In this document: piece after piece, positions 2,828-46,302 of the stretch
How the letters are laid out: each line of letters starts with the position of its first letter
Position numbering within the stretch: the stretch's first letter is position 1
DNA from: a virus
IMG/VR virus record: IMGVR_UViG_3300032322_001011
Coordinates: 1 to 64,000 of that record
Direction: 5' to 3' (one strand)
DNA: 64,000 bases
The notes under the pieces: model-generated
Told to the model about the DNA's origin: nothing
Databases searched by the model: none
What the model saw: only the letters and a program-made list of their open reading frames with translations
Position numbers and translations under genes: made by a program

Positions 2828-3348
2828 TATTTAAGCCCTTTTAGGTTTCTTCTTGCTCTTATTCTGCCCTTATCACCAAGACCTGGAGCAGGTGCTTTCT
2901 TCCTTCGGCTTCCTTCGTCAAAGAATACTTCACCCTCTCCTTCATGCCCAATTCCAACAATGTGCTCACGAGGTACTAGGTATATATGCAAACGGTTGTT
3001 TTGTCCGTAGTGGTGGATACCAAACTCTTCACTATCTGGGTTACTACCTGTCCATTCAGGAAAAATTGAACCACTGCGTACTTTTGCCCCTTTAGGCACA
3101 TCACCTCTGTGGGTTACCTGAACCTGATCAGGTAGTTTAACCTCATCTCGTAGATGCTGTTGCATATTTTGGTAAGGCTCACCACGCCTATCTCTTACCT
3201 CTTGTAGATACGTTTTAGGCCACTTAGTGGTTCCGTACGACCATTGCTCCATGTCAGCCTCTGCCTCAGTACCTGCCAAATACGGAGCATGCCCCTGCTC
3301 ATAACTGTTGTAAAACTGATCCCAGTTAATACCTTCGTGCGCTGCCAT
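2827..3348 (-). CDS. Putative ADP-ribosyltransferase-like protein with N-terminal tag
   Basis: 173 aa beginning MAAHEGINWDQF, a tag shared with several neighbours. The order H80-R81-G82 (arginine strand), S92/S94, then E138-x-E140 in 'GHEGEGEVFF' fits the R-S-E layout of mono-ADP-ribosyltransferases with an ExE turn. The C-terminus is basic. If active it would modify host proteins, as phage Alt/Mod enzymes do. Fold assignment is by motif only. A TATACT box lies six bases before the ATG with no Shine-Dalgarno, suggesting leaderless expression. Confidence 0.5.
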   Translation of the reverse strand: MAAHEGINWDQFYNSYEQGHAPYLAGTEAEADMEQWSYGTTKWPKTYLQEVRDRRGEPYQNMQQHLRDEVKLPDQVQVTHRGDVPKGAKVRSGSIFPEWTGSNPDSEEFGIHHYGQNNRLHIYLVPREHIVGIGHEGEGEVFFDEGSRRKKAPAPGLGDKGRIRARRNLKGLK

Positions 3349-4946: not shown

Positions 4947-5413
4947 TGGGTAAAATCGTCTATCACGGCACGTTTAGTGATGAACCACCTCATGTTTATG
5001 GTAACCCTTTTCATACAGGTACGATGTCTGCTGCATATGAACGTATAGACGATGAAATGGATAACAATGGCGCTGGTGGACAATATGAACCAACTTATAA
5101 AATTCATAAATATGAAATCTCTGATAATGCTCCCACTTCCCGTAAGACTTGGGATGACCCAGGTGATTTCTTTGACCACGGTCCAAACCCTGTACCTGAG
5201 TTTAATCAGAAACGAATCTACCCATACAAAAACGAATATGAAGACAAAGGCTCAACTTCCTATGTCATTCCTTCTAACTTTGTAGGAAACCACGTAAAAC
5301 ACCTAGGAATACAATTCCAGCATTTCTCTCAAGGTGGGGACTATGGGCATGAAATTGGTGTAAACGCTATGTCTACTATGGTCGGTGGTAAACCACCATT
5401 TAAGGCTAAGTAA
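4946..5413 (+). CDS. Arr-like / 'YHGT...FHTGT' ADP-ribosyltransferase-fold protein
   Basis: 155 aa. Starts MGKIVYHGTF and has FHTGTMSAA at 22-30. The pair YHGT...FHxGTxxAA is shared with Arr-like and related ADP-ribosyltransferase-fold proteins common in actinophages. The rest is Tyr/His/Asp rich (DFFDHGPNP, YPYKNEYEDKG). Unlike its neighbours it has no N-terminal tag; the preceding overlapping gene carries one. Substrate unknown. Confidence 0.45.
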   Translation: MGKIVYHGTFSDEPPHVYGNPFHTGTMSAAYERIDDEMDNNGAGGQYEPTYKIHKYEISDNAPTSRKTWDDPGDFFDHGPNPVPEFNQKRIYPYKNEYEDKGSTSYVIPSNFVGNHVKHLGIQFQHFSQGGDYGHEIGVNAMSTMVGGKPPFKAK

Positions 5414-9639: not shown

Positions 9640-11124
9640 CTACAGCCCGTACTGGCGAAGTACAGCCATTGCGATTGACTGAGCGTCATCGTTCACGAGT
9701 TCAACGGTCTTCCCGTCTAGCACCGACTCCACGACTCGGTTCTTATGCTCAATCAATGCATAGATTCGCTCATCAATCGTGGTCGCTCCATCAATGCCAG
9801 CGAGCATGATCGTGCTCACTGTTTCTCTGGTCTGACCGTTACGGCTCACACGTGCTTCCAGTTGTGTGAGATCAGTTGATGACCAAGGCAATTCAGCACT
9901 GATGTGAATACGGCCTGACGTGAGTGTCAGACCCACAGATGCGGCAACCACGTTGCCCACGAGTACACGTGCTTCACCACTTTGGAATGCATCAACTGAT
10001 TTCATTTTTTCGACATCGCTCATTCCACCAGCAATGCGAACTGGTGATGAGTCAGCGAATGCAGTCATGTATGCATTCATCACGTCAGTGTGTGACGTGC
10101 TGATGAACACCTGCTCGCCTGCTTCAATGAGTTCACGTGCATACGTGGTGACTGCATCAATTTTTCCACGACCAACTATTGCTCGTAGTTCGTTCAAGCG
10201 AATCAATGCTTCTGCTTTCCACACGTTCTCTGCTTTTTTCTCACCTTTGGTGATCTTGATCCACTCGTAGAGATTGTCCTCTGCTCGCTCGTATTGCTTT
10301 GCACGTGCAGAGTCCATCTCAACAGCGAGAACTGTTCTGCCGTGATTCGGCAACGTGAGCACCTCATCACGCCTCATTCGGAGCATGAATGAATCGCACA
10401 GCACTTGATTGAGTTCCTTCAAGTTCTGTGATCCACGTGTACCGAAATCATCGATACGTGGTGCGTAACGTGCCAAGAATCCACGCTCACCTTGTGGGAA
10501 TGTTGATTGACGATCAAGCATTCTGATGATCGGAATGAGATCAGTCGGGCGAGCAATAAGCGGCGTTCCCGACATTGCAATGCGAATACCAGACATCGGA
10601 ATGCTCGTGGCAAGGCGAAGAATTGCAGTGGAGCGTTGTGCTCGCTTGTCCTTGATTCTCTGGCATTCATCAACAATTATTCCGTTGATGTTTCCGATGA
10701 GAAGCGGCAACCAGCCCTTCACCTGTGTGTCACCACACAGCAATACATCGGCTTGTGGCAACTGCAATTTCATCTTCACTGGCATTGTTCCTTCAAGCGT
10801 TTGCACGTTCAACGATGGAGCGAAACGTGCGAACTCACGTGCGAATTGCAATCGCATTGATGGTGGACACACAACCAGAATTGGACTCATGCCTGCATCA
10901 ACTGCTGACAAGCAAATTGAAATTGCAGTTGCGGTCTTACCAGTTCCCATGTCAAGTGCCAACAATGCAGTGTTGCGATTGTCTTTGCGATTGATCACAA
11001 ACTCAACTGCTTTCACTTGGTGATCCATCAATGGAATTGCAGTTGGGATATATCGATACTGAACAGGCTCAACTTCGTTGAACAGATTCAGAATTGCTGA
11101 GTTGGATTGGGCTTGTGTGATCAT
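9640..11124 (-). CDS. SNF2/DEAD-like helicase (copy 1 of 2)
   Basis: 494 aa from ATG at 11124 (MITQAQSNS), which has AAAGGAG upstream; the open frame continues to 11190 but without a better start. Walker A DMGTGKT 58-64, motif II VDECQ 151-155, motif III MSGTPL 184-189, motif VI 'RVSRNGQT' near the C-terminus. SF2 ATPase that remodels or translocates on dsDNA. A second, distinct SNF2 gene is at 40271. Confidence 0.85.
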   Translation of the reverse strand: MITQAQSNSAILNLFNEVEPVQYRYIPTAIPLMDHQVKAVEFVINRKDNRNTALLALDMGTGKTATAISICLSAVDAGMSPILVVCPPSMRLQFAREFARFAPSLNVQTLEGTMPVKMKLQLPQADVLLCGDTQVKGWLPLLIGNINGIIVDECQRIKDKRAQRSTAILRLATSIPMSGIRIAMSGTPLIARPTDLIPIIRMLDRQSTFPQGERGFLARYAPRIDDFGTRGSQNLKELNQVLCDSFMLRMRRDEVLTLPNHGRTVLAVEMDSARAKQYERAEDNLYEWIKITKGEKKAENVWKAEALIRLNELRAIVGRGKIDAVTTYARELIEAGEQVFISTSHTDVMNAYMTAFADSSPVRIAGGMSDVEKMKSVDAFQSGEARVLVGNVVAASVGLTLTSGRIHISAELPWSSTDLTQLEARVSRNGQTRETVSTIMLAGIDGATTIDERIYALIEHKNRVVESVLDGKTVELVNDDAQSIAMAVLRQYGL

Positions 11125-11192
11125 GATTGTCTCCTTTGTTGGGTTCTGGCATCTTAGCCACGTCAATGCCCAATTCCACTGATGGTTCAATG

Positions 11193-19449: not shown

Positions 19450-19982
19450 TACAAACTCCAGTGCCTCAATCCGCCATTATCAAGTAAATACTTGCTTACT
19501 TTTAGGTTGCAGTCAAGTGTTCTGAGAAGTTTTATTTCTCCACCACAAATGTTCCTTGTTACGGTCTGCCATGAAGAATTGACTTGTAGAAGGCCGCTAT
19601 CAAATGAACCGTTTTTATTTAGTGTCCAAACGATCTTTCCATTGGCGTTCCATCGGGCATTTACCGCATCTGGGTTGCAACGGCTTTCACGATATGCGAT
19701 ATACGAGAACACCTGTACGGGGACTAAACCGTAGTCACGAAATGCCTGCTCAAACTGAGGGCATCTCTTTGACTTATCTGCTGGGATTCTTGGGTCAATA
19801 GGTTCTGGAATCGTTGTGGTTGTAGTTGGCACAATCAAATATGGCTCAACTTGTATTGGGGTTTTTGGGTAAACAGATTCTGGTGTACTTGCTGTGTTTG
19901 GGGACATTACAGAAAAGATGGAAGCGAGAACAAGATTTCCTGTCAGCGCAACCGTTTTGAGTATTTCCGACAATCTAAGCAT
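19449..19982 (-). CDS. Membrane-anchored or secreted lysozyme-like protein
   Basis: 177 aa. The N-terminus has a hydrophobic segment (VALTGNLVLASIFSVMS, ~11-27) acting as signal or anchor, then a Thr/Pro linker (VPTTTTTIPEPIDP), then a lysozyme-like domain: E99 in 'AYRESRCNP', 'GSFDSGLLQVNSSW' (~124-137) and paired cysteines. This is the goose-type/SLT pattern. It may cleave peptidoglycan outside the membrane, at lysis or for superinfection control. It lies among regulators, not with tail genes. Confidence 0.65.
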   Translation of the reverse strand: MLRLSEILKTVALTGNLVLASIFSVMSPNTASTPESVYPKTPIQVEPYLIVPTTTTTIPEPIDPRIPADKSKRCPQFEQAFRDYGLVPVQVFSYIAYRESRCNPDAVNARWNANGKIVWTLNKNGSFDSGLLQVNSSWQTVTRNICGGEIKLLRTLDCNLKVSKYLLDNGGLRHWSL

Positions 19983-26603: not shown

Positions 26604-26922
26604 CCCAAAGACTTTGCATTGAGTATCGCCCAGAACCACTGAACTTATCATCGTTCATTTGTGCTCTCTGGAACATCACAGGAGCACCTGAAACCCATGA
26701 ACGGTATTGGGGTGTCCAACGATCCACTGACAAAATGTCCACAATCCCAAGTTCCTGCTTTAAAAACCCACGTGATTGTGGAAATGCTTGCTGTGGGACA
26801 ACAGGGCGAGTAGCACGAATAGTTTCTGGGTCAGAAATAGCAGACTGCAAAGCAATATCGGTAAGCAACTCTTCACGAGACTGCCACGGGCGTGTGCTTC
26901 TGTGGTTATCTACAGTAGGCAT
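26599..26922 (-). CDS. Hypothetical protein
   Basis: 107 aa, MPTVDNHRSTRPWQSREELL. Helical N-terminus, 'VVPQQAFPQSRGFLKQELGIVDILSVDRWTPQYRSWVSG' in the middle. Overlaps the upstream stop. No family recognised. Confidence 0.5.
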   Translation of the reverse strand: MPTVDNHRSTRPWQSREELLTDIALQSAISDPETIRATRPVVPQQAFPQSRGFLKQELGIVDILSVDRWTPQYRSWVSGAPVMFQRAQMNDDKFSGSGRYSMQSLWV

Positions 26923-34574: not shown

Positions 34575-34905
34575 CAATCATCTCCAAGAAATCGTCTTCG
34601 GGTATAACTACATAGCGTCTGCCGCCAATATCAAACTGCAACACAGGAACTCTTTCTTCAATGATCGCTCGCTCACGTAACTCAACAAGGTCAAGAGCCT
34701 TAATAGTTATTTGAGTTAATCCTGTCGTGAGTTTGTTTTCAATGAGGAAGTTTTCCGAACGAACATCATTCTTGCGAAGCCAACCAGCACCAGAGCGAGC
34801 ATTACGAGATCCCTTATACGCAGTAGCGGTTCGCTTCTCTTGTTTAACAGACGCTTTATTAATGTTTCTTCGGTCATCTGCTGGGTCCTTTCCTATAATC
34901 TTCAC
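34567..34905 (-). CDS. Small PD-(D/E)XK-like phage nuclease
   Basis: 112 aa. 'GSRNARSGAGWLRKNDVRSENFLIENKLTT' with D-x2-S-E...IENK is a minimal Holliday-junction-resolvase-like site; 'IIEERVPVLQFDIGGRRYVVIPEDDFLEM' is the closing part. Overlaps recA by four bases (GTGA) and the Cas4-like gene by eight. Recombination module. Confidence 0.6.
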   Translation of the reverse strand: MKIIGKDPADDRRNINKASVKQEKRTATAYKGSRNARSGAGWLRKNDVRSENFLIENKLTTGLTQITIKALDLVELRERAIIEERVPVLQFDIGGRRYVVIPEDDFLEMIDE

Positions 34906-35924
34906 CGTGCAACACCGTAGTGGGCTTCAACCTTGGCAATCAAATCTTTCTGCATGTCAAGGTCTTCACGGAATGCATCAAGCATCTTGTCTTTACCTTG
35001 CCAGCGACCCTCACCAAATGAATAGTACGCACCAGCACGAGTAATGATGTCAATAGCAATACCGATATTCAACATGTCTTTGAGAGTGTCGTAGTCACCT
35101 TTCTCAAACCCTTGTGTGTCTGCAAAATAAAAGTCAATGATCGCACTTTGGTTAGGGCGATAAGTCTTGTTCTTGAGTGTACGAGCCTTGATGGTTTGAC
35201 CAACAACTTCATCTTTGTCTTTTAGCCATTCGTCACGCTTTACTTCAACACGGCAGAAGTAAGCAAAGTTCTTTGCCAGCCCACCTGGTGTTGTGCGTGG
35301 GTCACCCCACATAACACCAATCTTTTGTCTCCATTGGTTGATCATCAATCCAGTGCAGTTGCGCTCATCGGTAATAAGTGAACGCTTCTGTGCCTCTGAT
35401 GACTTGCGGAAGAACTTAGATGTAAGACGAGCACCAAGACCTACAGTGAACTCTTCCATCATCTTTTCAGATTCATCGTCTGGAACAAGTGCAGGTAGTG
35501 AGTCAATAACAATCATGTCAACAGCACGATTAGCCATGACATTGATAACCAAGTTGTACGCCTGCTCCATGATGTTGGTTTCAACAATCCACAGACGTTC
35601 TAGGTCAACACCTATAGACTCTGCATAATCAGGAACAAACTCTTCGGCAGCAATCCACAAAGCAATAAAGTCTGGGTTGAGTGCTTGGTTAGTTGCAATA
35701 GTTTTAAACGCAAGAGCGGTTTTACCAGATGACTCTTCACCAATGATTTCGCTCCATTGGTTTACGGGCCAACCACCACCAAGCATGAGGTCGTAGGACA
35801 AGATACCTGTAGAGATACGCTCTAACTTGCCACGGGTTTCACTACCCTTAACAATTGTTCCTGCACCATATTGTTTGTTAACCGAATTAATGATTGAAGA
35901 CAGACTGTCCCAATTGTTTTCCAC
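34902..35924 (-). CDS. recA: RecA/UvsX-like recombinase
   Basis: 340 aa from GTG at 35924, with AGGAG five bases upstream. Walker A G-E-E-S-S-G-K-T (62-69), Walker B 'VDMIVIDSLPAL' (~137-146) and 'CTGLMINQWRQKIG' L2-like region. Catalyses strand exchange on ssDNA with ATP. Clustered with its nucleases, it supports recombination-dependent replication and repair. Confidence 0.9.
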   Translation of the reverse strand: MENNWDSLSSIINSVNKQYGAGTIVKGSETRGKLERISTGILSYDLMLGGGWPVNQWSEIIGEESSGKTALAFKTIATNQALNPDFIALWIAAEEFVPDYAESIGVDLERLWIVETNIMEQAYNLVINVMANRAVDMIVIDSLPALVPDDESEKMMEEFTVGLGARLTSKFFRKSSEAQKRSLITDERNCTGLMINQWRQKIGVMWGDPRTTPGGLAKNFAYFCRVEVKRDEWLKDKDEVVGQTIKARTLKNKTYRPNQSAIIDFYFADTQGFEKGDYDTLKDMLNIGIAIDIITRAGAYYSFGEGRWQGKDKMLDAFREDLDMQKDLIAKVEAHYGVAR

Positions 35925-36320: not shown

Positions 36321-36671
36321 TTATTCTAACGGAGAGATTATCGCAATCATTTGATTTTCTAATAGTTTTTGAACAAGTGCCATTCCATAAGAAATTAACA
36401 CATTCTTTGAACTTTCAACCGCAGCCAAAGGTGGTAATTCCTCGTCATCTAGGCTAGTGGTTAGAACCTCTGTAAACCAATCAACTGACTCAGCAATCTC
36501 ATCAAAGATTCCAAAGTCATGTAGGAGTTCCCACTGCTCATCAATCTGTTGTTGCTCTAATTCCTGAACATCTTCAGAAGATGGGGTAAAGCCTAACTTT
36601 ACAGCAACGTCTTGCCCTGATGGAATGGAAAGCATAAGACAGAAGTTTCTTTTCTCAGTAATAAGATTCAT
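36321..36671 (-). CDS. Hypothetical protein
   Basis: 116 aa, MNLITEKRNFCLMLSIPSGQ; acidic, helical. Overlaps the DNA polymerase stop by four bases (ATGA), so co-translated with it. No family recognised. Confidence 0.55.
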   Translation of the reverse strand: MNLITEKRNFCLMLSIPSGQDVAVKLGFTPSSEDVQELEQQQIDEQWELLHDFGIFDEIAESVDWFTEVLTTSLDDEELPPLAAVESSKNVLISYGMALVQKLLENQMIAIISPLE

Positions 36672-38719
36672 TTTCCTTTTGCCTCCGACCAGTTAGTTGC
36701 TGCATGACACGACACTTTAAGTGTGACCCCCATAATACTCCTATCGTGACCCATCGCAGTAACTAGGGTGGACATTGCAGAGATTTCGTCTTCTTCTGGG
36801 GCAATTGCTACAAGTTCGTCATGCACTTGTACAAGCATCCTTGCCTGTGTCCCTGTAAAAGCCTTGTCCACATCAATCATGGCTTGCTTACAGATATCTG
36901 CGGCGCTTCCCTGAATAATGGCGTTAATGGCTTGGCGTTGTGCTCGTGACTGTGTAAACGAATCTTTTGATAACAACTCTGGAAGCCTACGCCTGCGACC
37001 ACTAATCGTGGACACATACCCAGAACGAACAGCCTTGGTAATAGCAATCTGCTTCCACCTAGTCAACCCAGCAAAACTCTTGTAGTAGTTATCAAGTATC
37101 GACATAGCGTGTTCTTCTTCAATACCTGTTTGTAGGGCAAGTTTCTTATGACCACCACCGTATGCGGTGAGGAAGTTAACACCTTTACCAATCTGTCGTT
37201 CTTCAGACGTTACCTCTTCTAAAGGCTTCTTAAACACGGCAGCCGCAGTAGCGGCGTGAATGTCTTCGTTGTGTTTAAAAATATGAAGCAACCGTTCATC
37301 TTGACTAAACATTGCCATGACTCGGAGTTCAATCTGGTCGTAGTCAGCCACCAACATGGTGTACTTATCTGGTGGTACAAACAAACTACGGATGGTGGAG
37401 TCTCGTGGGATGTTCTGCAAGTTTGGATTAGATGAAGACAACCGACCAGTGGCGGCTCGGTGCATGTTAAACGATGGGTGCAACTTACCGTTGTTTAACT
37501 TAGGTATAAGACCATCAACATATGTTGATTTCATCTTCCCAAGTTCTGACCATTGCAATAAAAGTGGGATCAAGGGATGCTTGCCTTTAAGTTTCTCAAG
37601 AGCATCCGCATCAACTGATGGAACTCCCTTAGCGGTCTTCTTAGTTGGCTTAAGACCTAGGCCACCTGCTCGCTTACCTGTAAACAAGTACGTTTGTTTG
37701 TCCTTATTAGAGTCTGGGTTAAACCCTGCGTAGGAGTTGTCTACAATGTCCAGTAGGCACTCACGCATCTTGGCATCCAGTTCTTTCCTCAATAACTTAA
37801 GTGAGGCTGAGTTAACTGTAATCCCTTCTTCTTCCATACACATGAGCACCCGAAGAACTTCAGACTCTTGCTGAACGGCTGGCTGTAAATCTTCAATAAG
37901 GTTTAACTTAGAACGCAACTTAGAGTAAAGCAACCATGTCCAACGAGCATCTAAGTGAACGTACTTAGCCGCAGAACTAAAAGGAACAGTGTTAATAACA
38001 GCACCAAGTTTTCCTTCCTTGGCGTAAGCATCATGCCCACCAAAGTTCTGGGCAATTAAGTTAGTCAACGAAAACGATTGTGAGTTCTCATTCTCTAGAT
38101 GTTGAAGAATCATCGTGTCCATGTATGGACCTGGTGGTAACTCTCCGTAGTACTTCTTAATAGAGCGAGCGTCAAACTTTACGTTGTGACCAACCTTTAC
38201 AAGGTCGCTAAAGAATATTGGGCGCAACGCTTCAAAAACTTCATAGCGAGATAACTGCGCTGGTGGGTCTGAATAGACACCTGGAATCACATACTTGGCT
38301 TTAGCCATTGACTCCTTACCGCTTGCTGTTACCTTGCGATATCCAGATGGTGGGATGGTTGTACCGTCACCACGTTCTTCTGGAATAACTATCTCACCAA
38401 GCAAATGACCCATAGGTATAGCCCATGAGTGACCGTAGGTAGCAATGCCAATCCAAAACACCTCGTTACGTAGAGGGTCTAGCGCTAAATCTTTTAGGTA
38501 TCGTTGGCGAATTGCTTCCGTTGATGAGGCAACAATTGAATCCGTAGGGTTCTTGAGCGTTGCAATGTGATCTTTACACTCTTTCAAAAAAAGTGTATTG
38601 ATATCATCATGGCGCTCAATAACCCCACGGGACTCAATGTCAAAGGCAAATTCCCCTGCCTTTGTAACTATCTCAACAAGTTTGTGCAACTCTTCAACGG
38701 TGTGAACCGTCTGTTGCAT
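36668..38719 (-). CDS. DNA polymerase, family A (3'-5' exonuclease + polymerase)
   Basis: 683 aa. N-terminal exonuclease: FDIES (D27, E29), 'VKVGHNVKFDARSI' and a later Y-x3-D-type site. Polymerase: motif A 'ADYDQIELR' (~458), motif B R-x3-K-x3-F-x3-YG in 'RQIGKGVNFLTAYG', motif C 'VHDE'. No N-terminal 5'-flap domain, as usual in phage enzymes. Main replicative polymerase of this phage. Confidence 0.95.
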   Translation of the reverse strand: MQQTVHTVEELHKLVEIVTKAGEFAFDIESRGVIERHDDINTLFLKECKDHIATLKNPTDSIVASSTEAIRQRYLKDLALDPLRNEVFWIGIATYGHSWAIPMGHLLGEIVIPEERGDGTTIPPSGYRKVTASGKESMAKAKYVIPGVYSDPPAQLSRYEVFEALRPIFFSDLVKVGHNVKFDARSIKKYYGELPPGPYMDTMILQHLENENSQSFSLTNLIAQNFGGHDAYAKEGKLGAVINTVPFSSAAKYVHLDARWTWLLYSKLRSKLNLIEDLQPAVQQESEVLRVLMCMEEEGITVNSASLKLLRKELDAKMRECLLDIVDNSYAGFNPDSNKDKQTYLFTGKRAGGLGLKPTKKTAKGVPSVDADALEKLKGKHPLIPLLLQWSELGKMKSTYVDGLIPKLNNGKLHPSFNMHRAATGRLSSSNPNLQNIPRDSTIRSLFVPPDKYTMLVADYDQIELRVMAMFSQDERLLHIFKHNEDIHAATAAAVFKKPLEEVTSEERQIGKGVNFLTAYGGGHKKLALQTGIEEEHAMSILDNYYKSFAGLTRWKQIAITKAVRSGYVSTISGRRRRLPELLSKDSFTQSRAQRQAINAIIQGSAADICKQAMIDVDKAFTGTQARMLVQVHDELVAIAPEEDEISAMSTLVTAMGHDRSIMGVTLKVSCHAATNWSEAKGK

Positions 38720-40270: not shown

Positions 40271-41815
40271 TTATACCTCGCTGTTTGTTAAGAACGAAGA
40301 CAATGCGCCTAAGTTCAGTTGAAAGTTTCCTTTGTGGTCGTGACCACCATCAACAAATGCTTTGTTGATGTTCCTTTTCTCTTGCAACATTTCGTATTGC
40401 CTCTCTTCAATACTCCCCTTCATTACGAATGAGATTATGTTAACGTGCGGAAACTCAGATGACAACCTGATAATTCTGGCTTCTCGTTGGTCTAGTTTTC
40501 CAGCGCTCCAAGGAAGGTCATAGGAAATCAAATAGTTAGCCACAGGTAAGTCCACACCGTAGCCACCAGCATCCGATGATAAGAACAAACGGGTGTTTGG
40601 ATCGTTAGCAAACTGTTGTTTTGCTCTGTCTCTAGACATCATATCCATGCCACCCATAAACAAAACGCTGTTGGTTAGCCCTTTTGTAGCGTTTTGAATT
40701 AGTCGTAAATTGTTTTTAAAGAACGAAAACAATACAACTTTATTCTTTGGATCTTCATTTAAAACGTCTTCAATGTACTGAAGCACCGCATCTAACTTGG
40801 GGGTGTTAAACCTCTCTGGAATAAGACCCTGTGCTACAACTTGAGAAGCATGCTTACTACCTTGATCGTTGTTGTCGTCTAGGTATTGCTCTGCGGATAT
40901 CTTTACCAGTTCTGGATTATCACAGAACATACGTAGGGTAGTCAATCGGGACATGACATCCCCTTGTGCTTCCATGTTCTTATTGTTTCCGTAATAGTGC
41001 GCCCACAAATCAAACCCTCTGCCATGTTGGGTTATTGCTTTTTGAATAGAATCAAGCAAGTCATTAGACAACTTCCTATACACAGCAGCACCTGCGGAAT
41101 CAAATGGTACTGGAATGAAGTGGTTGATTACTTGGGGCAACTGATCCTGAATATCTTCACGAGTTTTGCGGACCATTACGTCTTGCATACTTTCATTTAG
41201 AGCCTTAAGATTTCGATATCTGCTTGGCTTACCAAAATGATCACGCACAATAAAGGTGCGGTCAAACACTTCAAACTTCCCAAGTACTGCTGGGTCAACA
41301 AACTCCATAATAGAAAACAATTCTTCTGGGCGATTCTCAATAGGCTGACCAGTGAGCGCAAACCTGTAATGGTATTTCTTACCTATGCGTTTGATAAGCC
41401 TAGAACGCTTGGCTCTTGGGGTCTTAATCATGGTTGCTTCGTCAACCACAATTGCATCAAACTTATGTTTTTCAAAATGAGCCAAGTCGTTAACTAATGA
41501 TTCAGGGTTAACAACAACGTACTTTGCGCTGAGTGCGTTACGCCATTCTTTCTTTCTAGCGGCAGCAGAACCATCAATAACAACGACATCAGAATCAGTA
41601 AACTTTTTAATTTCTCTAGCCCATTGATACTTCAATGCAGATGGGACTACCACAATTACTTTCTTTATCTCACCAGACTCAAACAACTTTTCTAGTGCAG
41701 CAATAGTAGTAACAGTTTTACCAGCACCCATCACTAGGGCTAACAACATTTGACCACGGTCAACCATGAGTTCGGTTGCCTCTTCTTGAAACGGATAAAG
41801 TTTCCCTTTAAACAT
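40271..41815 (-). CDS. SNF2/DEAD-like helicase (copy 2 of 2)
   Basis: 514 aa. Walker A MGAGKT (29-34), motif II VDEAT (124-128), motif III 'ALTGQPIENRPEELFSIMEF', C-terminal 'LLIS-YDLPWSAGKLDQREARIIRL' with motif VI R-x-x-R. SF2 ATPase acting on dsDNA in replication or recombination. Overlaps the primase gene by 8 bases. Confidence 0.9.
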   Translation of the reverse strand: MFKGKLYPFQEEATELMVDRGQMLLALVMGAGKTVTTIAALEKLFESGEIKKVIVVVPSALKYQWAREIKKFTDSDVVVIDGSAAARKKEWRNALSAKYVVVNPESLVNDLAHFEKHKFDAIVVDEATMIKTPRAKRSRLIKRIGKKYHYRFALTGQPIENRPEELFSIMEFVDPAVLGKFEVFDRTFIVRDHFGKPSRYRNLKALNESMQDVMVRKTREDIQDQLPQVINHFIPVPFDSAGAAVYRKLSNDLLDSIQKAITQHGRGFDLWAHYYGNNKNMEAQGDVMSRLTTLRMFCDNPELVKISAEQYLDDNNDQGSKHASQVVAQGLIPERFNTPKLDAVLQYIEDVLNEDPKNKVVLFSFFKNNLRLIQNATKGLTNSVLFMGGMDMMSRDRAKQQFANDPNTRLFLSSDAGGYGVDLPVANYLISYDLPWSAGKLDQREARIIRLSSEFPHVNIISFVMKGSIEERQYEMLQEKRNINKAFVDGGHDHKGNFQLNLGALSSFLTNSEV

Positions 41816-42743
41816 TTATCCACCAAGGTATTACTGATGCTTGCTTTATTGCCGTTAGCGTTTCGTCTTGAGTCATTTCACCGATGTCTTTTGCGTTCGT
41901 GTGTGCGTAGTGTATATATTTTACACCATACCTAAACGCTGGTAACTGCTTTGTAATACGTTTTGCAGACTCAATCCCTGCCTCATCATTATCCATAGCA
42001 ATAATTAACCCGTCAGCATGTTCGGATAGAAGACGTATCTGGGCCTTACTTACGTGTGCTCCAAAAGTTGCCACGGCACTTACCCCATCCATAACAGTGT
42101 CAACCCTGACTACATCTAACGGGGACTCAACAACCATTACAATCTTTTGAGAAACTTTGTCTAGGCCAAATAACGTATCTGACTTCTTAATCCCGATTGG
42201 ATAGTTGCGAACCTGTGACGGTTCTTTCTCTTGCCACCCAAGCAATTCACCAAAAGAAGAAACTATGGGAAGAATCCATGCTTGTTTCTTCTCATCAAAC
42301 CTAACTCCGTACTTCCTTGCAGATGCTCTATCAAGACCACGAGTCCACAACCAGTTGTCAGAGGGCGCTGGAAAAGAACTAAACACTTTCCAATCTACTT
42401 CTGGCTTTAACTCAGCAACAGGTTCTGCTGTCAATCTTTCAAGACCAGAATTAATCAAGAAAGTATGTACAGCAATAATACTGTCTGGCTCACCAGTAAG
42501 TTCTGAAACAAGGGTTGACAATGTTCCTTTAGCACCACAGGAATAACAAATCCACAAGCCAGTGTTTGCATTCATTGACCACGATGGTGACCTATCTTCT
42601 TTACCAGTTCGTGATGCGTGTACAGGGCAACACCCAGATATTTCCTTCTCACCTACACGCTTTACGGTTACTCCTAACTGAGTTAGGACACCAGCAATAT
42701 CAGTAGTACCAGTTGTCATTGTCCGAGTCATTATCATCCCCAT
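41808..42743 (-). CDS. DNA primase (DnaG-like, zinc finger + Toprim)
   Basis: 311 aa. CHC2-type zinc site 'GCCPVHAS...WICYSCGAKG', then Toprim: 'VVESPLDVVRV' (E) and 'LIIAMDNDEAGI' (D-x-D). Starts at 42743, 42734 or 42719 are possible; an AGGAG fits 42734 best. Synthesises RNA primers. Overlaps the helicase gene by about 44 bases. Confidence 0.85.
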   Translation of the reverse strand: MGMIMTRTMTTGTTDIAGVLTQLGVTVKRVGEKEISGCCPVHASRTGKEDRSPSWSMNANTGLWICYSCGAKGTLSTLVSELTGEPDSIIAVHTFLINSGLERLTAEPVAELKPEVDWKVFSSFPAPSDNWLWTRGLDRASARKYGVRFDEKKQAWILPIVSSFGELLGWQEKEPSQVRNYPIGIKKSDTLFGLDKVSQKIVMVVESPLDVVRVDTVMDGVSAVATFGAHVSKAQIRLLSEHADGLIIAMDNDEAGIESAKRITKQLPAFRYGVKYIHYAHTNAKDIGEMTQDETLTAIKQASVIPWWINV

Positions 42744-43965
42744 CTTCTCCTACCTCTGTAAAGTCCATGTTGTTCCAGTCCCAGTTAATTCTGATCTCTC
42801 CTTGTGGGGCTGAACGTGCAATGACTACACGAATGATTCCTTGGTTCTCAATATCTGGATCAGACTCAACTGCAATAACAAGGTCTGAGTCTTGAGCAAA
42901 TGACGAGGTGTAACCAATTGAGTCAACCGTTACCTTGCGTGACTTCTTGTTACCCAACTTCCATGAAAGAACCTGGGTAGTACCAACAATTGGAATGTCA
43001 GCAGTCTGTGCAAGACGCTTTAAAGACCGAGTGATGTTTGTGAGCGCCTGTGGCGAACCCTTTGGTTCTCCTTGCTCGTCATCCATTAGATACACACCGT
43101 CAACAAAAAGAATGTCTGGCTTGTACTCTTGCACCTTTGCCGCAAGTGAACTAACGGTGGTGAGTGATGATGTGTCCTCAGTGATAACAAACGGATGCAT
43201 GTTCTTACGCATACGCAAAGTATTACGAACACGCTCAAACTCTTCGTCAGAAAGACTTGCTCGCAAGATGTTGCTGTATGGAACTTTGGCAACAATCGCA
43301 TCGTAACGTGCCGCTTGTTCTTCTGCTGACATTTCAAACGAAACAAAGAGTGGGCGTTTACCGTGGATGTGGGCTGCGTTAGCCATCATCAACGTCATCA
43401 ACGACTTACCTTTCTTTGCTTCACCAACAAATGTAATCAACTGTTGTGGGCGAAGACCCGAAGTGATTCTGTCAAGACCTTGAATACCTGTAGGAATACC
43501 ACGAATAGCATTAGGCATCTTACGTAGTTCGTCATATTTTGAAACACGTTCTTCCCACTGCTCAATAAGGTTTACATCTCGTAGGCGAGCAACATCTGCT
43601 CCAGCCTTCTGTACACCTGCGGCAAGCAACTTAAACGCTTCACTTGTGTCCCCAGCATTGAGTGCAGGCATCGCTGCTGACATGGCCTCAACAAGATTGC
43701 GCTGGCGGTAACTTGCATAAAGTTCATCTACCAATGCGGTAAACGGTTCTGGTTTAGCATCAATTACTTTGATGTCTCCAAACTCCATACCAAGCGCACG
43801 TTCAGTTGGAACTGACCCATGATTACGCCAGTATGAAGTAATCCATGTCCAGACATTCCCCCACTCTTTAGTGAAGTGCTCAGTCTTTACGCCATGCTTT
43901 AACGGAAAGGAAATGTCTTGGTCTTGAATGACCTTACTGATTAGTAATTGTTCTGCACTAGCCAT
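42700..43965 (-). CDS. DnaB-type replicative helicase
   Basis: 421 aa from ATG at 43965, overlapping the upstream TAA. N-terminal helical domain (1-130), linker, then RecA-like core: 'IPTGIQGLDRITSGLRPQQL', Walker A 'GEAKKGKS' (181-188), 'PLFVSFEMSAEE' motif, Walker B 'DILFVDGVYLM'. Hexameric 5'-3' helicase. Highly acidic end (GEDGDDNDSDNDN). Confidence 0.9.
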   Translation of the reverse strand: MASAEQLLISKVIQDQDISFPLKHGVKTEHFTKEWGNVWTWITSYWRNHGSVPTERALGMEFGDIKVIDAKPEPFTALVDELYASYRQRNLVEAMSAAMPALNAGDTSEAFKLLAAGVQKAGADVARLRDVNLIEQWEERVSKYDELRKMPNAIRGIPTGIQGLDRITSGLRPQQLITFVGEAKKGKSLMTLMMANAAHIHGKRPLFVSFEMSAEEQAARYDAIVAKVPYSNILRASLSDEEFERVRNTLRMRKNMHPFVITEDTSSLTTVSSLAAKVQEYKPDILFVDGVYLMDDEQGEPKGSPQALTNITRSLKRLAQTADIPIVGTTQVLSWKLGNKKSRKVTVDSIGYTSSFAQDSDLVIAVESDPDIENQGIIRVVIARSAPQGEIRINWDWNNMDFTEVGEDGDDNDSDNDNWYY

Positions 43966-44405
43966 TAGGAAGACCACGCAGTCTTTGGTGAGACTACGGT
44001 TGCCCTAAGCCCAATAAGTTTGTAGTGCTCCTGATCTGCAACATATATCTGCGTGATACCACGATTGATGCTGAGGTCATAAGCAAGTTCTTTGATGTCT
44101 TGAAATGAAACCACGTTAGTTGAAATCCCCTTCTTAATTAACCACCTGTCAATCGCATCAGCGACTGGCGGAGGAAGCAGTGTATAAACCTCTGTACCGA
44201 TACCCAACCTGTTTATTGAATCACTAAGAGATTTGATTGGGAGAGTATTTGGTTCCCACATTCTTAGGTACTGATCCCATTTTTCATTTCTCAAAAAGTA
44301 TGCGGCTTTTATCTTTGCGATACCTTCAGGCTCTGAAGCAAGCACACCTTCAAACATTGTTGCTTGCGACTTTTGTGAAAACGATGACAGGTCATTTCGT
44401 TCCAT
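43965..44405 (-). CDS. Unknown protein between loader and helicase
   Basis: 146 aa from ATG at 44405 (MERNDLSSFSQKS). Ends 'HYKLIGLRATVVSPKTAWSS'. Pattern 'ITQIYVADQEHYKLIGLRA' could be a Toprim-like or Rossmann-like C-terminal half. Sits between a DnaC-like loader and DnaB-like helicase, overlapping both; a replication-accessory role is likely. Confidence 0.5.
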   Translation of the reverse strand: MERNDLSSFSQKSQATMFEGVLASEPEGIAKIKAAYFLRNEKWDQYLRMWEPNTLPIKSLSDSINRLGIGTEVYTLLPPPVADAIDRWLIKKGISTNVVSFQDIKELAYDLSINRGITQIYVADQEHYKLIGLRATVVSPKTAWSS

Positions 44406-45039
44406 ACTGAGTAATTCGGTAATCCTTTCCTTCAAATGGAATCTGCAATGTTGAGTCCTGGAGTATTGAAGATAGCCGTGGACCATAAATTTTAGACAAC
44501 GAAGCAATGCTGTACTCCGATGTAACGATTGTGATCAGTTTCTGCTCGTACCTACTGTTAAACAATGATACAAGAGCACCCTTTGTAAATTCAGTCTTCT
44601 TCTCGCTACCAAGCCCGTCAATAACTACAACGTCATAGACAGCGTTTAAGTACTTTAGCAAGTACTCATCACCGTATTCCATCGGGAGTTCACCATCATT
44701 GCGAATCTCATCGTAAGATGCCTCAACAAACTTCTCAGCAGTAATAAAGAAACCACCAAGTTTGTGCTTCTCCAATAACTCAGATAGCAAACCTGCGGCA
44801 AGATGAGTCTTACCAGTACCAGTGGAACCGCACAGATACAAACCTTCACCGTTCAAACGGTTCTCTTCAAAGTTTCCCATCCATCCACGAATGGCTTTAA
44901 CAACTCCCCAACTACCTACTTCTTCATCGTAGTTGTCTAAAGTTTTTTCAATGTATCGGCGTGGTATGTGTGCGTTATCCACACGTTCTTTTGGTTGTCG
45001 GTTGCGCCAGTACCGAGAACCGTGCCACTCAGTATTCAT
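44392..45039 (-). CDS. DnaC/IstB-type helicase loader (AAA+)
   Basis: 215 aa (ATG at 45039; 45045 also possible). Walker A G-S-T-G-T-G-K-T (71-78), Walker B 'YDVVVIDGLGSEK' (~135-147), sensor region 'ITIVTSEYSIASL'. N-terminal 'IPRRYIEKTLDNYD' is typical of the family. Loads the DnaB-type helicase encoded downstream. Confidence 0.8.
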   Translation of the reverse strand: MNTEWHGSRYWRNRQPKERVDNAHIPRRYIEKTLDNYDEEVGSWGVVKAIRGWMGNFEENRLNGEGLYLCGSTGTGKTHLAAGLLSELLEKHKLGGFFITAEKFVEASYDEIRNDGELPMEYGDEYLLKYLNAVYDVVVIDGLGSEKKTEFTKGALVSLFNSRYEQKLITIVTSEYSIASLSKIYGPRLSSILQDSTLQIPFEGKDYRITQYGTK

Positions 45040-45217
45040 CGTCATCAATCAAAGTCCTTTCAACGCTCTTCTTATTTTCTTTGTAATACTTTTTTACGTA
45101 GTCTTTCATTGCTTGCAAATCAACTTGTGTTTGAACAAGCCAAGTCTCTGCTGATTCCCAATCACGCCACTGAAGAGCGATGTCGTACTCATGTCGTGAT
45201 TCAAGATAATCAACCAT
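45029..45217 (-). CDS. Small helical protein
   Basis: 62 aa from ATG at 45217 (MVDYLESRHEYD). A longer frame begins with TTG at 45271. Helical: 'ALQWRDWESAETWLVQTQVDLQAMKDYVKKYY'. Acidic end (LIDDDEY). Between initiator-side genes and the loader. Confidence 0.5.
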   Translation of the reverse strand: MVDYLESRHEYDIALQWRDWESAETWLVQTQVDLQAMKDYVKKYYKENKKSVERTLIDDDEY

Positions 45218-45236
45218 GATGTTGATTGCTTTCTTT

Positions 45237-45644
45237 TCACCCCTCAAGGTACTTCTCCAATCGTGGATCAAACTTCATCTCTTCAGAAGTGGACTGCACT
45301 GTACTACCTTGAACACGCTTAAACAACTCACCTCGTCTGGCAGCAAACGCTCTCCAAGGTGTCTCTTGTTCTTTTAACGGTGTGCGCTTAATGTCATCAG
45401 CAAACAAATCAATCATCTGATATATCTGATCATGTGTAACTGAATCTGCAATCATGGTGCTAAAGATTTTCATCATGGCTGGTCCGTTAACTGGAGCGTT
45501 TAAAGACATGGACATACCAGTCGTGCGGTCTTGAAGGTACATAACTAACTTTTTGAGGCTTGGACCTTTTTGTGGTTCAACCTTCGGCTTGTCTTCGTCA
45601 GCGCCGATTACCTTGACATCCCAGTCATCGTGTTTCTTTTTCAT
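45237..45644 (-). CDS. Hypothetical protein of the replication module
   Basis: 135 aa from ATG at 45644, overlapping the initiator's TGA (ATGA). 'LKKLVMYLQDRTTGMSMSLNAPVNGPAMMKIFSTMIADSV' helical domain, basic N-terminus (MKKKHDDWDVK), end 'MKFDPRLEKYLEG'. No family recognised. Confidence 0.5.
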   Translation of the reverse strand: MKKKHDDWDVKVIGADEDKPKVEPQKGPSLKKLVMYLQDRTTGMSMSLNAPVNGPAMMKIFSTMIADSVTHDQIYQMIDLFADDIKRTPLKEQETPWRAFAARRGELFKRVQGSTVQSTSEEMKFDPRLEKYLEG

Positions 45645-46156
45645 TCCGACTCCAAGTTTTTTATCTGGCGCATCCACCTAGGGTCTTGAAGCATAAACGT
45701 AGGAATTTTTCCATCCTTTTTTCTGGCCCCCTCTAGAGAATGATTAGTCTCTATAGATTGGGTGTCACGGGAGTCACCCTCCGAGGGTGTCCCTGGAGTC
45801 ACTAGGGGGGTGACACTGGAGACACTATGGGGGGTGTCCCTGGAGACACCCTCCCTTGATTTAGGGTTGTTGAAATCCACGGTGTACAAGTTGGTTTTAT
45901 TGTTGCCGCCTTTAGCCCTGCGAATGGTCTTTCGTAGTACCCCAGAAGACTCAATGCGCTTCATGGCACGGAGTATTGTTCTCCTGTTTAATCCAGTCTT
46001 TTCAGCCAGATGGTCGTAAGACGTTGTGAACTGTTGAGTCTCATTGTCCATGTATTTCATTGCGTTTATCAATACGCATAAAGCAATTGGATCATTTCCA
46101 ATGTATTCCATGACCCAACTTGGGATCGGGATAAATGTTCCACTAAACTTTGCCAT
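45641..46156 (-). CDS. Replication initiator-like winged-helix protein, contains iterons
   Basis: 171 aa. N-terminal domain: 'ALCVLINAMKYMDNETQQFTTSYDHLAEKTGLNRRTILRAMKRIESSGVLRKTI' is a winged helix of the initiator / lambda-O / DnaD type. Residues ~100-135 (Ser/Thr/Pro/Arg-rich) are encoded by four about 20-bp iterons. The C-terminus is basic. Directly followed by genes for accessory proteins, a loader, helicase and primase, as lambda O is by P. Likely binds its own coding region as origin. Confidence 0.65.
   Translation of the reverse strand: MAKFSGTFIPIPSWVMEYIGNDPIALCVLINAMKYMDNETQQFTTSYDHLAEKTGLNRRTILRAMKRIESSGVLRKTIRRAKGGNNKTNLYTVDFNNPKSREGVSRDTPHSVSSVTPLVTPGTPSEGDSRDTQSIETNHSLEGARKKDGKIPTFMLQDPRWMRQIKNLESE
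45760..45851. repeat. Four tandem iterons, candidate origin
   Basis: Units start at 45760, 45785, 45808 and 45832 (period 23-25). Core GGGTGTC-CCTGGA-GTCACC, each an imperfect palindrome with GGTG(T/A)C at one end and G(T/A)CAC at the other. All lie inside the initiator-like gene. Flanking inverted repeat TAGAGA...TCTCTA at 45733-45752. Confidence 0.65.
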
Positions 46157-46195
46157 ACTTGTCTCCTCTTGTTTGTTGTGTTACGCTTTGTTTAC

Positions 46196-46296
46196 GGAAG
46201 GAAACCTTCATCCTTCCTGCCATTCCGCTCCCCTTTCTGGCGGAATTGGCTTTATGGGATTGAGGGCGGTGGGTTTTTCTCTTCTTTGCCCACCGC
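46196..46296. other. Three hairpins in tandem upstream of the initiator gene
   Basis: GGAAGG 46196-46201/CCTTCC 46212-46217; ATTCCGC 46222-46228/GCGGAAT 46240-46246; GCGGTGGG 46266-46273/CCCACCGC 46289-46296. No U-run follows, and no coding sequence. Between the stop at 46303 and the start at 46156. Confidence 0.55.
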
Positions 46297-46302
46297 TCTC
46301 TC

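Follow-up and report, generated by a model that had tools for sequence, protein, structure and literature searches.

Introduction

For lambda and the Stx phages, the replication origin is known to lie within the gene of the initiator (PMC7466680), and the iterons of lambda are bound by dimers of the O protein (PMC5043065). At oriL of phage SPP1, the initiator gp38 binds direct repeats in its own gene, with gp39 as the loader and gp40 as a DnaB-type helicase (PMC6316719). The replisome organisers of the lactococcal phages TP901-1 and Tuc2009 likewise bind direct repeats in their own genes, and these repeats constitute the origin (PMC8965321). In RepA_N plasmids, the winged-helix N-terminal domain binds Rep boxes in the middle of the rep gene, where the linker is encoded (PMC5703833).

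Here, we analyzed a 64,000-nucleotide stretch of viral DNA (the window; positions 1 to 64,000 of the 84,695-bp IMG/VR record IMGVR_UViG_3300032322_001011), in which four repeats lie within the gene of an O-like replication initiator. Very probably, this phage starts copying its DNA at these repeats, which makes them a predicted origin. An origin inside an initiator gene is of an already-known kind; less expected are the generality of the arrangement among O-like genes and the wide recurrence of the palindrome. For a group of uncultured myoviruses that, by the rest of their genes, would seem to replicate through recombination, the locus also provides a testable origin.

Initiator gene and iteron array

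The initiator gene (45641..46156, minus strand) encodes a protein of 171 aa with a winged helix (residues ~13–93), a disordered linker (102–145), and a C-terminal helix/motif region (154–169). Its profile matches were to replication-initiation and O-like families (phrog_270, 1.5e-16; phrog_391, 2.3e-11; also phrog_428), and its N-terminal part matched HTH_36 in Pfam. In the structure model, helices at residues 13–19, 23–33, 47–54, and 58–71 and strands at 74–80 and 87–93 formed the winged helix, residues 102–145 were of very low confidence (linker pLDDT <50), and a C-terminal helix spanned residues 159–169. A DPRW..Q motif at the C-terminus (45641-45700) was kept in nearly all of 15 aligned relatives, down to 46% identity, and the predicted helix carrying it is a candidate docking peptide that may contact the loader or the helicase. 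The non-coding segment upstream of the gene (46157-46302) contains a hairpin (CCATTCCGC...GCGGAATTGG, ~46219-46250), a possible regulatory site.

Four 20-bp units start at 45760, 45785, 45808, and 45832, as an earlier note on this DNA had reported, with spacings of 25, 23, and 24 bp on the plus strand; read in the direction of the gene, which is encoded on the minus strand, the spacings are 24, 23, and 25. In gene order, and with the units written on the plus strand, the first iteron (GGGTGTCCCTGGAGACACCC; 45832..45851) is at gene position 306 in frame 0, the second (45808..45827) at position 330, also in frame 0, the third (45785..45804) in a different reading frame (frame 2), and the fourth (GGGTGTCACGGGAGTCACCC; 45760..45779) at position 378, again in frame 0. 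Tandem Repeats Finder reported a 24-bp array at 45785-45849, whose score of 102 was by far the highest in the window (runner-up, 61). A scan for the iteron consensus allowing three or fewer mismatches gave 3 matches in the window versus 0.01 expected. The array occurs only once in the 84,695-bp record, where no second array was found.

The four units matched their reverse complements at 14, 10, 10, and 12 of 18 positions. They are thus imperfect palindromes, as the note had proposed, but the palindromicity of the window's own units alone was not significant, since 58 of 300 synonymous recodings equalled the initiator gene. Relatives make the palindrome clear (e.g., GGTGTCACGGGTGACACC in L047). 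The iterons encode residues 102–133, within the low-confidence linker, and the encoded peptides are GVSRDTP, SVSSVTP, LVTPGTP, and GDSRDTQ. The proposed coding of the repeats in a flexible Ser/Thr/Pro part after a winged helix agrees with the HTH_36 match, the structure model, and the linker pLDDT.

The locus resembles lambda O in combining a winged-helix initiator with four iterons of ~18–20 bp that lie where the gene encodes the linker following the DNA-binding domain. The lambda iterons start at codons 116–138, compared with residues 102–133 here, and are spaced 20/24/23 rather than 24/23/25, with shifting frames in both; an AT-enriched flank on the C-terminal side and a loader gene that follows the initiator gene are also common to the two. 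Conversely, the iteron sequence differs, the initiator is 171 aa long instead of ~300 aa, and the AT flank is weaker, while the loader here is a DnaC-like AAA+ protein, the helicase, primase, and polymerase are phage-encoded, and the phage is a myovirus with UvsX. The assertion that the iterons are placed "exactly as" in lambda O goes too far, given the differences in iteron sequence and protein length and the weak AT flank.

Judged by its published description rather than by repeat sequence, SPP1 is alike in its repeats within the initiator gene, its loader, and its phage DnaB-type helicase, but it has a second origin, oriR, whereas the record studied here has no second array that we could find. 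TP901-1 and Tuc2009 are similar, again by published description, in using repeats inside the initiator gene as the origin. RepA_N initiators (pSK41, pTZ2162) share the winged helix and the repeats in the linker and were among the top fold matches of the initiator model. The best PDB matches included 4pql, 5kbj, and 4pt7, which we take to be RepA_N plasmid Rep initiators, with moderate TM values (0.34–0.45); winged helices are common, which limits the weight of such matches. Unlike those proteins, the window's initiator has HTH_36 and lacks both the RepA_N domain (no match to PF06970 in the Pfam scan) and the DnaD-like C-terminal domain.

Gene neighbourhood

The genes that follow the initiator gene on the minus strand are mostly those of a replication module. 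A 146-aa gene without a family match (45237..45677) overlaps the end of the initiator gene, followed by a small 80-aa gene with no known function in ORF and family searches (45029..45271) and a gene for a DnaC-like AAA+ helicase loader (44392..45048; phrog_50, 3e-40; IstB and Bac_DnaA ATPase matches), whose position is conserved in relatives. After a 180-aa gene, also with no known function in ORF and family searches, come a DnaB-like replicative helicase (42700..43977; PF03796, 7.9e-31; phrog_19, 5.8e-63), a DnaG-type primase recognized by family matches to its CHC2 zinc finger and Toprim domains (41808..42743), and, downstream of the primase, an SNF2-type helicase (40271-41815; phrog_62). 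Further along are a PolA-type DNA polymerase (36668..38719; phrog_17, 2.3e-122) and a UvsX-like recombinase (34902..35924; phrog_97, 9.4e-60), and this side also encodes an SSB-like protein and a Cas4/RecE-like exonuclease. Baseplate and tail-sheath genes lie on the other side of the initiator. Profile matches therefore bear out the loader, helicase, and primase genes named in the earlier note, and its picture of a myovirus otherwise of recombination type was fair in view of the sheath and baseplate genes, the UvsX-like recombinase, the DNA polymerase, and the Cas4/RecE-like nuclease.

Gene order was assessed in eight records including the window's own, the other initiators being 46–88% identical to that of the window. 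The loader and the DnaB-like helicase were encoded within ~3.5 kb after the initiator in all eight, and UvsX was ~10–12 kb away, also in all eight. A sheath gene was present in six; the remaining two records were fragments of 47 and 29 kb. These relatives are a coherent group of uncultured myoviruses.

Two genes elsewhere in the window also drew our attention. A second SNF2-type helicase gene is located at 9640-11190, and it matches phrog_62, as does the one beside the primase. The gene at 21554-22990 matches phrog_887 (queuine tRNA-ribosyltransferase-like, 5.9e-32), which hints that tRNA or phage DNA may receive a deazaguanine modification.

Genome-wide skew

The earlier note had named cumulative GC skew as a check on the origin. 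After detrending, the record's cumulative GC skew reached its minimum at 45,733, at the initiator gene and 27 bp from the nearest unit, and the excursion was reached in none of 2000 block shuffles. The minimum of the third-codon-position skew was at 45,643-45,677 (p = 0.001). By contrast, the raw cumulative skew was discarded as an origin marker, since an overall C bias puts its minimum at 80,206. On the coding strand, GC3 skew was mostly positive on one side of the initiator gene and mostly negative on the other. Since nearly all genes are on one strand (minus fraction, 0.95), this sign change fits G-rich leading strands diverging from the initiator gene.

Similar minima were found in related contigs. 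In five contigs of the family, the total GC-skew minimum was 0.15 kb or less from the array and the GC3 minimum at or beside the initiator gene, and in three contigs of a sister family the skew minimum was within ~1.2 kb, the agreeing contigs being syntenic and not independent. Two more distant relatives with the array and gene order of the window deviate: in G009, the array is near 19568 and the skew minimum at ~52–60 kb, and in G010 (after orientation) the array is near 26642 and the minimum at ~39 kb. In local contrasts over 10 or 15 kb, the array ranked among about the top 3–20% of positions, and the skew break coincides with the border between the replication and tail genes.

Flank of the array and the origin model

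AT content was 61% in the 70 bp that flank the array on its C-terminal side (45691..45760), compared with 54% for the gene and 36% for the iterons; the corresponding flank of lambda O is 67% AT versus 52%. This flank was richer in AT than the gene average in each of the 21 O-like genes measured, among them lambda O. The segment is a weak candidate unwinding element, and the duplex stability of 45700-45749 (60% AT) was not extreme, with ~15% of 50-bp window positions being less stable. An inverted repeat, CTCTAGAGA-ATGATTAG-TCTCTATAG (45731..45756), adjoins the fourth iteron within this flank and is possibly a site for unwinding or for an accessory protein.

As a whole, 45691-45851 is best explained as an intragenic replication origin of the lambda/SPP1 type with the initiation steps outlined below, a reading to which we assign a probability of roughly 0.86. 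The lambda-type origin predicted earlier is thus supported, as the initiation profiles, the linker-coded repeats, the order of the loader, helicase, and primase genes, and the sign change in GC3 skew agree. Initiation would begin with the binding of initiator dimers, through the winged helix encoded by the same gene, to the four ~20-bp iterons. Because the iterons are about two helical turns apart, we propose that the dimers would stack on one face of the DNA and form an O-some-like complex, which may strain and melt the AT-enriched flank described above. The C-terminal helix of the initiator, or a small downstream protein, could then recruit the DnaC-like loader, which would place the DnaB-like helicase and the primase and so lead to bidirectional theta replication. 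UvsX-type recombination-dependent replication probably takes over later.

The best surviving alternative, although an improbable one, is that the array is an operator, at which the winged-helix protein would control transcription of the downstream replication operon, possibly by autoregulation, rather than the start of replication. Winged-helix folds are common to transcription regulators such as CodY, and a promoter-like match (45768-45740, minus strand) overlaps the fourth unit, with two such sites in the region versus 2.6 expected. However, the initiator matches initiation profiles and not repressor profiles, and the array is within the coding region, distant from the gene start. The four helically phased units, the skew switch, and the adjacent loader and helicase genes also fit an origin. 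Origin binding and autoregulation may co-exist.

Still less probable is that the array acts as RNA, with hairpins in the mRNA attenuating transcription or regulating translation of the operon. The minus-strand array did fold somewhat better than shuffled sequences (z = −2.5, DNA energy parameters), but palindromic protein-binding sites fold by construction, and units spaced evenly at about two helical turns are what DNA binding, and not hairpin formation in RNA, would predict. The terminator-like stem at 45829-45854 is on the plus strand, opposite the genes, and the three terminator-like sites compare with 2.2 expected; as these signals were not in excess, we rejected an attenuator or terminator.

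Constraint on the repeats at the DNA level

We compared the observed repeats with 1000 synonymous recodings that preserve the protein. The four-site score was 51, compared with 41.2 ± 1.9 (maximum, 48) in the recodings, none of which reached the observed value. In 1000 synonymous recodings, internal repeat pairs of the initiator gene averaged 15.8 (maximum, 44), compared with 78 observed.

Synonymous variation was examined in seven distinct full-length sequences, the window included; nine IMG/VR relatives had been found. The rate of synonymous differences was 0.30–0.49 in each ten-codon block through residue 100, and fell to 0.14, 0.06, 0.006 (codons 121–130), and 0.07 in the successive blocks of codons 101–140. 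Iteron codons averaged 0.068 synonymous differences, compared with 0.33 outside the iterons and flank (permutation p <5e-5). Synonymous differences among relatives are also reduced next to the array, where the inverted repeat CTCTAGAGA...TCTCTATAG lies. The iterons are therefore conserved as DNA beyond the needs of the protein.

These results bear directly on the explanation that nothing more than a Ser/Thr/Pro-rich protein repeat is involved, with a DNA likeness arising from amino-acid repetition and codon bias. The encoded peptides listed above are repetitive, and many VTP or collagen-like repeats of bacteria match the DNA pattern, but the likeness was not reproduced by recoding, the synonymous sites are frozen, the units are in different frames, and the same unit occurs in non-coding DNA (see below). 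As a complete explanation it is refuted by the recoding, the frozen synonymous sites, and the mixed frames, and we consider it highly improbable.

Repeats in O-like genes chosen by protein similarity

We then asked how general intragenic repeats are among O-like initiators. As tblastn of the initiator against cultured phages gave just two weak matches, wider winged-helix queries were used, one of which had no match. Twenty O-like genes of cultured phages were picked by similarity of the winged-helix protein only, avoiding selection by repeats (19 from the wider queries and one from tblastn with the initiator). Their hosts were Curtobacterium, Arthrobacter, Bifidobacterium, Pseudomonas, Escherichia, Vibrio, Sphingopyxis, Thermus, and Sporosarcina, in addition to uncultured ones.

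Intragenic repeats beyond those of synonymous-codon shuffles (p ≤ 0.03) were detected in 18 of the 20 genes; those of Arthrobacter phage Abidatro and Sporosarcina phage Lietuvens had no repeats. In the background set, 7.7% of 337 phage genes reached p ≤ 0.03, and 5 of the 12 matches at p < 0.005 were initiator genes themselves. The shuffle test recovered the annotated iterons of lambda O, the positive control, with a spacing of 20/24/23 and frames 0,2,2,1. The repeats were mainly directly after the winged helix, mostly 22–24 bp apart, and in shifting frames, with a unit that differed by family. A GGTGTC-type unit was present in a minority of the set, indicating that the general trait is the arrangement and not the sequence. 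It also follows that the window's case is less exceptional than the earlier note implied. A partition or incompatibility function, with the array serving as centromere-like repeats while the prophage is kept in a plasmid-like state, is scarcely credible: partition systems also use iteron arrays and TubR was among the weak fold matches, but no partition gene was recognized among the proteins searched, the neighbours are a loader, a helicase, and a primase, and O-like genes of many phages have the same arrangement.

Intragenic iterons, as in lambda, SPP1, and the lactococcal phages, thus appear close to a rule for O-like initiators, so that in many phages origins could be read from sequence alone. 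A practical search would look for repeats ~22–24 bp apart, in shifting frames, directly after the winged helix.

Occurrence of the same unit in other phages and genomes

Unrelated phages and prophages also carry arrays of GGTGTCNCNNGNGACACC in their O-like genes, where all three reading frames are represented. In a single-unit scan of IMG/VR, many contigs among the matches listed had three or four units in winged-helix ORFs. The frames were always 0,0,2,0 and the spacing 24/23/25 or 30/23/25 in the family closest to the window, compared with frames 2,2,0,1 in L103, 0,1,2 in L181, and 1,2,1,0,1,0 in L162, which belong to other families. Apparent prophage copies were found in bacterial genomes of Streptomyces, Candidatus Lumbricidophila, Gemmata, Sulfuriferula, and Rhodobacterales, and further ones in Ancylobacter, Vicinamibacterales, and a Chloroflexi MAG. 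Our literature search found no description of a GGTGTCNCNNGNGACACC-type motif.

Two Geobacillus phages have previously unannotated, non-coding arrays of a GATGTCACCAGTGTCACC-type unit, at 4950-5065 in PK2.1 (L188) and 2985-3078 in TP-84 (L189). The neighbours of both arrays are genes for an HTH_36 protein, a helicase loader/inhibitor, and a helicase, and AT-rich DNA comes after the array. These arrays are probably the origins of the two phages, and their non-coding position indicates that the element does not depend on being coding sequence. With more doubt than confidence, we suggest that related winged-helix initiators, in phages and prophages of several bacterial phyla, recognize a single iteron "code" (GGTGTCNCNNGNGACACC at a spacing of ~23–25 bp) whether it lies in non-coding DNA or in any reading frame of a gene. 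Such a portable origin might be cross-recognized between unrelated phages, including myoviruses that pair a lambda-type start with UvsX recombination.

In the pattern scan of bacterial genomes, visual inspection led us to set aside many matches as low-complexity repeats of the VTP or collagen-like type. Such coding repeats, found in L080, L095, L097, and L052 as well as in many of the bacterial-genome matches, fit the palindrome by chance and are a trap for motif scans.
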